NCBI GenBank assembly: GCA_947476645.1
Contig: CANJRM010000005.1
Span: 1-64,000, forward strand
Reading direction: 5' to 3'
Length of the DNA stretch: 64,000 nt
From: Bacteroidota bacterium
Lineage (GTDB): Bacteria; Bacteroidota; Bacteroidia; Chitinophagales; LD1
The position numbers were made by a program, and so were the translations under genes. This document shows, one piece after another, positions 29,106 through 30,765 of this stretch. The number at the start of each line of letters is the position of its first letter. Positions within the stretch are counted from its first letter, which is position 1. The notes beneath the pieces are model-generated. The model saw only the letters and a program-made list of their open reading frames with translations. It was not told the origin of the DNA and made no database searches.

Positions 29106-29834
29106 CTACAAAATCACCGCCACCTTAGGCAAAGTCCACGGACCGCTGTTAGCGGGATTGCTGGCGTTGGCATAGCGCACAAAAGCAATTAATATTTTGC
29201 CCGAGTAGCCGGTGCCTAATTCAATTACAAACAGCGACTTTTTACTGATGGTATAATCAGTTGCCTTGTCCACGGTTGGCAAACCGCCATCGCCCGGGTC
29301 GGGAGTAGGCGGAGGAGTAACTTCCTTGCCCTGTATCAAATACTTTACCTCAATAAAATCGGCTGCCTCGTGCATACTGGCGCGGGTGGCGTCTTCGGCA
29401 GTGCGTATTCTGAACTTCATTTGTCCGCCACCGAGCGGGGTAATATCCACCGTAGGCACATCTTCAATTTTGCCTTTGGCGGTTGGGGTTTTATCGCGCT
29501 CGGGCAGGTTAAGAATAGTGCGGTCGGTATTCGTAAGCACACTGCTACCGCTCATGCGAATAAGCAGGGGCTCGGCAAAGGCGCTGAAGTCCTTCATGTG
29601 CTTATTTACATCCTTGGTAATATCGGTGGTGCGTTTGGTTTTGTCGGTATACTTAGGATACAACAAAATCCATGCATCGCGAAATGCCTTCCAGGCATCG
29701 AGCTCGGTGGTGCTTAAGCCCAGTTCAATACCGCGGGCGGGCGTTCCGGTTTCTAAACGTGTGGTGCTGTCGCGCTGATAACTGTCGAATTCCGGCTTTG
29801 TTTCGGGAACTCTTTTTCTTCTTTTTTTAGCCAT
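29106..29834 (-). CDS. Hypothetical protein with beta-sandwich-like C-terminus
   Basis: 242 residues. It starts with a basic stretch (MAKKRRKRVPETKPEFDSY) and has no signal peptide. A helical middle part (about 42-80, LDAWKAFRDAWILLYPKYTDK) is followed by a beta-rich half with a Pro-rich linker (PPPTPDPGDGG, about 180-190), ending NSGPWTLPKVAVIL. The helical start plus C-terminal GPWS-like strand resembles unnamed Bacteroidota proteins carrying a fibronectin-type-III-like domain; this is a weak inference. Its codons are richer in G and C than those of its neighbours. It lies 60 bp downstream of the 21-bp tandem repeat. Confidence 0.7.
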   Translation of the reverse strand: MAKKRRKRVPETKPEFDSYQRDSTTRLETGTPARGIELGLSTTELDAWKAFRDAWILLYPKYTDKTKRTTDITKDVNKHMKDFSAFAEPLLIRMSGSSVLTNTDRTILNLPERDKTPTAKGKIEDVPTVDITPLGGGQMKFRIRTAEDATRASMHEAADFIEVKYLIQGKEVTPPPTPDPGDGGLPTVDKATDYTISKKSLFVIELGTGYSGKILIAFVRYANASNPANSGPWTLPKVAVIL

Positions 29835-29887
29835 TGTGTTTGTTTTTATTGTTAATGAATAAGTGACAATTGGTTTTGCTGACGCGC

Positions 29888-30139
29888 TTATGCTCTTTGA
29901 GCATGCTCAAAGCCGCTTTGTATTTGCTCAATGCTGCTTTGTGCATGCACAAAGGGCTGTTGTATTTGCTCAAAGCAGTTTTGTGTTTGCTCAACGGTTG
30001 GTTGAGCATGCTCAACACCATTTTGTATTTGCTCATTCTGCCTTTGAGCATTTACAATGCTGTTTTGTATTTGCTCAACATGCCGCTGAGCATGTTCATA
30101 CACCCTTTGTATTTGCTCTGCCACTTTTTGCCGCGCCAC
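29888..30139 (-). CDS. Possible heptad-repeat peptide encoded by the 21-bp array (uncertain)
   Basis: An open frame of 83 codons with a GTG start (VARQKVAEQIQRVYEHAQ). Since each repeat is 21 nt, the frame reads as 7-residue units of two kinds, EQIQxx(I/V/F) and EHAQxx(V/I/F). Hydrophobic residues fall at units 3 and 7 in part, as in a coiled coil. It ends 53 nt before the next gene on the same strand. Because the period is a multiple of three, other frames are also open across the array, so open reading alone is weak evidence. It may equally be non-coding. Confidence 0.25.
   Translation of the reverse strand: MARQKVAEQIQRVYEHAQRHVEQIQNSIVNAQRQNEQIQNGVEHAQPTVEQTQNCFEQIQQPFVHAQSSIEQIQSGFEHAQRA
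29895..30125. repeat. Eleven-unit 21-bp tandem repeat with alternating palindromic units
   Basis: Eleven imperfect units of exactly 21 bp start at 29895 and every 21 bp after. Units of type P centre on GAGCATGCTC or a variant; units of type B read TTTGTATTTGCTCAA. The order is P B P B B P B P B P B. Unit 1 (29895-29912) and unit 3 (29937-29954) are perfect 18-bp palindromes, CTTTGAGCATGCTCAAAG and CTTTGTGCATGCACAAAG; unit 6 holds the 16-bp palindrome GTTGAGCATGCTCAAC. The differences are paired, so symmetry is kept. The rest of the gap (29835-29894 and 30126-30279) shows no gene. Confidence 0.9.
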
Positions 30140-30279
30140 GCTTGCATAATTTAAAAGAACGCTGTATCTTTCATCTCCCTTTTTGCAAGGGCAAAGGAAA
30201 GCAGAAGCAAACCGCGCGGTGTGTAAACTCTGTGTAAACTGTAGGAGAGAGGAAATTGCACGGTTGCTGTTGAACAGTG

Positions 30280-30765
30280 ATGTGCCGCCATCAACCCATA
30301 TTGCGACATCTCGGCAAAAAATTAGTGCAGCAGTATTGCCCGCAACTGAGCAGCCGCACGCGGCTGAGCAAGTGGGACTGCCGCGACCACCTCATTGCCG
30401 CTATTGAGCAGCAATGGAAACTTGGCTTTGACTATTTACCAAGCGAAGAAACCCTTTACCACGCACTGCGCGGCACACGGTGCAGCAGCGGCATGAAGGA
30501 GAAACTCGCGCTGCTGTATTATGCCCGCCTGCATGCCGAAAAATGCGAGGAACTGATGCGCACCTATATCTCTATTTTCAAGCGCCAGCGCCAGCTCCCC
30601 ACCCCTTACTGGAACCGGTTTGTGGAAGAATACAAACGCCTGCCGAACCCGAAAAAGAAGCCTGTGTATTTTCCGCGCAATGTGGCAAAGTGGTTAGAGC
30701 AGTTGAACAAATTGCAGAAACAAAAATTGCGTACGGGCTTGAAGAAGGAGGCGGGGAGGAAGTGA
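30280..30765 (+). CDS. Hypothetical basic protein
   Basis: 161 residues; a GTG one codon earlier (30277) is also possible. No signal peptide or membrane segment. The sequence is helical and basic, with HLIAAIEQQWKLGFDYLPSEETLYHALRGTRCSSGMKEKLALLYYARLH in the middle and a Lys/Arg-rich C-terminus (KLQKQKLRTGLKKEAGRK). A nucleic-acid-binding role is possible from the charge but not shown. I do not recognise a family. It is divergent from the repeat and the gene at 29106-29834, and like that gene uses more G and C than the housekeeping genes. Confidence 0.6.
   Translation: MCRHQPILRHLGKKLVQQYCPQLSSRTRLSKWDCRDHLIAAIEQQWKLGFDYLPSEETLYHALRGTRCSSGMKEKLALLYYARLHAEKCEELMRTYISIFKRQRQLPTPYWNRFVEEYKRLPNPKKKPVYFPRNVAKWLEQLNKLQKQKLRTGLKKEAGRK

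Follow-up and report, generated by a model that had tools for sequence, protein, structure and literature searches.

Tandem 21-bp arrays upstream of helical/FnIII-like protein genes in Bacteroidota keep their period while their unit sequences change

In the LytTR Regulatory System, a stand-alone LytTR regulator is encoded beside an operator whose 9-bp direct repeats are separated by 12-bp spacers, giving a 21-bp spacing, and this spacing is conserved while the repeat sequence is not (PMC6193735). Two such repeats lie upstream of the -35 element, and the partner of the regulator is a membrane inhibitor (PMC6193735). BrickBuilt, a minisatellite-MITE of Porphyromonas gingivalis, is a mobile inverted-repeat element with 23-nt repeats that are highly conserved between copies (PMC4596501). 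REP palindromes are short and extragenic, and form sequence families repeated genome-wide (PMC3733652). A passage of PMC12691694 cites boxA as preceding noncoding transcripts, those of rRNA operons and CRISPR arrays.

The array described here lies in a 64,000-nucleotide stretch of DNA from a Bacteroidota bacterium (the window). Like the LytTR Regulatory System, this array and its relatives have 21-bp spacing and poorly conserved repeat sequence, and 12 of 88 ORFs upstream of the related arrays match LytTR. In contrast to that system, they have about ten units and lie downstream of promoter signals, their partner is modelled as a helical/FnIII-like protein, and regulators of the LuxR and XRE types occur as well. 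The LytTR operators show that 21-bp spacing with poorly conserved repeats is a real design, although one defining feature of that family is lacking here. BrickBuilt, which is transcribed in part, is likewise an intergenic Bacteroidota minisatellite with many copies per genome, whereas the units of the present arrays are 21 bp long, vary in sequence by locus and paralog, and are tied to a gene cassette. As in the boxA-preceded transcripts of the passage cited above, a boxA would stand before an untranslated stretch; unlike rRNA and CRISPR transcripts, the arrays have no spacers and no general cas linkage, and would form the 5' leader of a protein gene. The constant repeats and unique spacers that are hallmarks of CRISPR were not seen, and no cas-like ORF was found by inspection beside the window array. 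The arrays share short extragenic palindromes with REP elements, and differ from them in that their units are specific to a locus and follow one another in helical phase. A first-pass annotation of the window knew of no named family with such a layout, and neither a description of such arrays nor a named family was found in open-access papers (subscription journals were outside the scope). The arrays apparently represent a large, undescribed class in environmental Bacteroidota.

The locus comprises the following features.
29106..29834, minus strand: 242-aa gene served by the array (AF2 model, FnIII matches, homologs with arrays)
29835..29894, minus strand: leader between the array and the ATG (from the sequence)
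29895..30125, no strand assigned: eleven 21-bp units in tandem, higher-order period 42 bp; palindromes in units 1, 3 and 6
30151..30160, minus strand (the gene strand): boxA-like antitermination motif GTTCTTTTAA, 5' of the array (motif match)
30277..30765, plus strand: all-helical ORF of 162 aa, divergent and located 5' of the array (AF2 pLDDT 80)

The eleven units, each exactly 21 bp, fill the whole interval, in agreement with the earlier description. Self-identity was 0.52 at a lag of 21 and 0.68 at a lag of 42, compared to 0.26 at lags of 20 and 22. The 42-bp higher-order period, stronger than that of 21 bp, reflects alternating units, and the alternation slips in phase at units 4-5. Two units, 1 and 3, form perfect palindromes of 18 bp that differ at mirrored positions, and unit 6 contains a 16-bp palindrome, all as first annotated. 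Units 8 and 10, also assigned to the palindromic type, are palindromic only by half (10 of 18 positions), and this class is less uniform than had been described. The units are better described as built from two half-sites, TTTG(A/T)GCA and TTTGTAT(T/A), which give a palindromic unit when paired like with like and a non-palindromic unit when paired unlike. A second array with these half-sites was found elsewhere in the same genome (contig C186, L002:1402-1590), flanked by a gene that ends like a T9SS-sorted protein and by an mfd-like gene; with no helical/FnIII gene adjoining, it is an orphan array. A DNA search with the window array across 30 genomes of the family gave no more than short and weak matches beyond its own genome, as the unit sequences are not conserved.

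Over all window units, dyad pairing was seen at 54 of 99 pairs compared to 24 expected from column permutation (p=0.0004), and symmetry was significant (p<0.05) in 37 of 101 related arrays, the remaining 64 having no significant dyad. The dyad symmetry pointed out in the first-pass annotation is thus beyond chance. Its argument from mirrored substitutions is not upheld: a count of paired against unpaired changes had been set beforehand as the test, and Watson-Crick-preserving double changes over the window array and its sister array were not in excess (40 vs 63±19). Mirror symmetry between relatives was seen instead in the orthologous pair L010/L072, in which the conserved core of the units is mirror-symmetric (mirror r 0.86, with 0 of 200 permutations as high). 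At the centre of the dyads, complementarity shows a 3-nt dip and climbs sharply at separation 4.

The 242-aa protein was modelled by AF2 (pLDDT 89.5) with an N-terminal helical domain (residues ~13-107) and a C-terminal FnIII-like domain (~120-242). The C-terminal part aligned to FnIII chains of the PDB with a VIA-align Z of 10.8 and an rmsd of 2.2 over 93 aligned residues. Foldseek and VIA-align with the whole model gave FnIII matches only, a search by which the helical domain was barely probed. Neither this ORF nor the 162-aa ORF matched Pfam, NCBIfam or PHROGs, in agreement with their first annotation as unrecognised. The array does separate the 5' ends of the two ORFs, and its assignment to regulatory-region DNA between gene starts is supported. 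Among 30 genomes of its family, 6 had homologs of the 242-aa protein, as did 24 of 395 genomes that sampled its class and 15 of 294 that sampled a different class of the phylum, and also one Bacteroidetes MAG and one Brocadiia MAG; searches of phages, plasmids and viral contigs with single family proteins gave no match. Directly upstream of nearly all of these homologs lies a 21-bp array with locus-specific unit sequences. In the window's own genome, two more paralogs (L063 on contig C156 and L065 on contig C26) have arrays of unrelated unit sequence, that of L063 preceded by a stand-alone LytTR gene and that of L065 by a boxA-like motif.

The period was quantified in the 450 bp upstream of 135 non-redundant family genes, by self-matching at lags from 10 to 69. 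The best lag was 21, 42 or 63 in 126 of the 135 (in 65, 46 and 15 genes, respectively), while ordinary genes gave such lags in 12.1% (genome G498), 6.1% (G006) and 10.4% (window) of cases. The related arrays have a median of 10 copies, end a median of 84 bp before the ATG, and repeat whole units at 0.70-0.75 identity with little block structure; the gap between array and ATG is A-rich across loci. An unbiased scan of 800 kb of G498 returned the same preference in intergenic DNA, the best lags being 42 (13 cases), 21 (10) and 63 (5), followed by 41 (4), 43 (1) and 20 (1), with the remaining lags single. These deviations are mostly of 1 bp and not of 3 bp, as helical phasing tolerates. Many of the G498 arrays precede further uncharacterised families, including proteins that end in FnIII-like or similar domains, and several, like that on C186, are orphans without a helical/FnIII-type gene. 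Density is variable: 400 kb of G006 contain two arrays and the 64-kb window contains one, and a genome can hold dozens. Such numbers, and the tracking of a protein family, speak against the centromere-like role that had also been considered. There is good support for the array class, for its period and for its cassette.

Some further loci are recorded here. In L034 (2185-2524) and L037 (2191-2520), 42-bp arrays lie between a member of the 162-aa ORF family and a member of a ~286-aa family with a weak CarboxypepD_reg match, and a similar array-gene pair is present in G006 (C1, near 193.7 kb). On contig C2 of G498, at ~147.0-147.4 kb (L200), an array and FnIII-like gene stand beside a Cas9-like gene, possibly by chance. 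On the same contig, at 138537-138653, a two-copy 62-bp repeat on ACCTCACCCCCTAACC...CTCTCCTGCGAGGAGAG has a GC-rich hairpin and looks like a different dispersed repeat.

Signals for transcription are enriched on the gene strand, on the far side of the arrays from the gene. In related genomes the 16S leader has a boxA-like motif, AAAGTTCTTTGAAATATTGG, that is similar to the window motif GTTCTTTTAA. A fixed boxA pattern, GTTCTTTNAA, which the window has at 30151-30160 on the minus strand, was exact in 11 of 97 loci in the sense orientation and in none in antisense, with 0.34 expected; with one mismatch allowed, it was present in only about a quarter of loci. The top k-mer found de novo upstream of the arrays was GTTCTTT (21 loci sense vs 2 antisense), which matches the same 16S leader motif. 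The Bacteroidota promoter TTG-N17-21-TAnnTTTG was found in 10 upstream regions compared to 0.9 expected, and its -7 element TAnnTTTG was not enriched between array and ATG. Given this placement of promoter and boxA and their strand-specific enrichment, the most probable reading of the array is a leader that is transcribed and not translated.

The 88 ORFs located 5' of arrays include 12 with LytTR matches, 11 with GerE/LuxR matches and 2 with HTH_3 matches; a recognised DNA-binding domain occupies only about a third of the upstream slots. These regulators are mostly in the same orientation as the array gene and typically 70-260 bp away. Of 11 stand-alone LytTR genes, 7 are followed by an array, compared to 1 of 19 full-length LytTR proteins (Fisher p=0.001); among LuxR-type genes, an array follows 4 of 8 short frames and 3 of 10 longer ones. 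Arrays with the same class of upstream regulator were not seen to share a motif. The LytTR repeat consensus is of the ACCnCTTAn type, and the consensus units of 18 LytTR-linked arrays had no common motif by inspection; the difference in dyad strength between LuxR and LytTR loci was not significant (p=0.12). In the window, no recognised regulator was found, and the 162-aa neighbour has no LytTR match. This ORF occupies the slot that in relatives is often taken by a stand-alone DNA-binding gene; members of its family in L034, L037 and L038 also adjoin 21/42-bp arrays; its model had no confident match in the PDB.

Unit sequences differ between loci, including paralogs within one genome. An example is the pair L010/L072. 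The proteins are 90% identical, the LytTR regulators 88% identical and the flanks conserved, and the arrays differ at roughly half of their positions, every unit having been rewritten in concert with the period and approximate copy number unchanged. (At L010:1368-1403, minus strand, ~900 bp from the array, an Rfam match to DUF805b RNA above the gathering score was also recorded.) Below ~80% protein identity, many pairs have no detectable unit similarity and several are still similar. Copy number varies even between identical or near-identical orthologs, by 63 bp in L157/L158 and also in L077/L097. It is possible, and we put it forward with some hesitation, that the array is a regulatory element with its function written in the period and not in the letters: the 21-bp spacing and some ten copies would be kept, while all of the unit sequence is exchanged together at moderate protein divergence. 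The arrays, phased at two helical turns per unit, would belong to a cassette that recurs many times per genome and also comprises a gene for a stand-alone DNA-binding protein and one for a helical/FnIII-like protein. This conservation of period without conservation of sequence, the cassette context and the transcription signals go beyond what the first-pass annotation contained.

Our tentative proposal, plausible though somewhat short of probable, is that the array, as DNA, offers multiple sites in helical phase to a dimeric regulator that is specific to the locus, and so controls the helical/FnIII-like protein. The cassette would read, in order, stand-alone DNA-binding regulator, promoter, boxA, about ten 21-bp units, short A-rich leader, and gene for a helical plus Ig/FnIII-like protein. 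The array would act as double-stranded DNA. As every unit is two B-DNA turns long, all units would face the same side of the helix, making cooperative filling possible for a dimeric regulator, whether this is the product of the gene just upstream or a locus-specific equivalent. The bound regulator may then repress or tune transcription through the leader, and boxA would let RNA polymerase pass the untranslated stretch. Unit sequences would evolve in concert and co-diverge with the regulator, with spacing and copy number held. Helical phasing predicts just this, two B-DNA turns per unit with a tolerance of 1 bp. The best fit is an operator in the leader that has multiple phased sites for a locus-specific regulator; it is unproven, as no regulator-specific motif was found and 88%-identical LytTR regulators stand beside very different arrays. 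Counting against it are also the 64 of 101 arrays without a significant dyad, the orphan arrays, the presence of boxA in only about a quarter of loci, the window's own neighbour, which is a helical ORF on the opposite strand, and the 3-nt dip at the dyad centre, which would also suit a hairpin.

Such a hairpin would be expected if the array acted as RNA, in a boxA-protected repeat transcript that offers hairpins or repeated binding sites in the mRNA for antitermination, stability or translation control. The promoter and boxA that precede the array with enrichment on the gene strand are consistent with this, as are the better folding of arrays than of their column-permuted versions (mean z -2.1) and the rise in complementarity at separation 4, which would fit a loop of 3 nt. 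The dyads, however, are strand-neutral. They have no sense-strand G.U preference (G.T 217 vs A.C 229), and the sense strand is the stabler in 46 arrays and the antisense in 52 (p=0.24), results that do not support a structured sense RNA, a structured RNA being among the options of the first-pass annotation. Most arrays lack a significant dyad, separate hairpins would not need strict 21-nt spacing, and an Rfam search at the arrays gave no relevant match above the gathering score. Overall, we consider an RNA-level leader rather unlikely. Coding for heptad-repeat (coiled-coil) leader proteins is highly improbable. The unit equals seven codons, the sense frame is open in 73 of 101 arrays, and the sequence upstream in L143, L144, L145 and L085 reads as a real-looking heptad-spaced ORF and not as a clear array; but the antisense frame is open just as often (72 of 101), third codon positions have no excess variation (0.204, 0.212, 0.213), no sense frame is open in the G189 arrays, and units out of phase deviate mostly by 1 bp and never by 3, with arrays of period 20, 41 and 43 in existence. 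Coding was rejected on the strand-symmetry, codon-position and off-phase tests.

Two readings dispense with a specific binder or with function altogether. Phased repeats could sum an intrinsic bend into a curved or supercoil-sensitive segment independently of their sequence, which would agree with a conserved period over unconserved letters. Predicted curvature, calculated with wedge parameters, was 5.6 deg/turn in arrays compared to 4.1 in flanks and 3.9 when units were cut to 20 bp; column-permuted arrays gave 5.8 deg/turn, so that no sequence selection for bending beyond phasing is visible. As it also leaves the dyads and the linked DNA-binding genes unexplained, a purely mechanical role is distinctly unlikely. 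A neutral or selfish minisatellite, expanding by slippage and acquiring dyads through hairpin-assisted slippage and quasipalindrome correction, would account for the copy-number differences between near-identical orthologs, for the strand-neutral dyads and for the orphan arrays. Under neutrality, one unit length across more than 100 unrelated sequences would not be expected, nor would 93% attachment to one gene family at a similar position, with boxA and regulators, and we regard this origin as very unlikely.

The arrays define a class of repeat element that is recognisable only by period and context and is invisible to ordinary sequence similarity, which would explain why no family exists, and they tie several uncharacterised, many-paralog protein families into one system. 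If the phased operator is the true reading, the arrays would be a natural collection of regulator/operator pairs in rapid co-divergence. If instead function lies in the period only, they would represent selection on helical phasing without sequence constraint.
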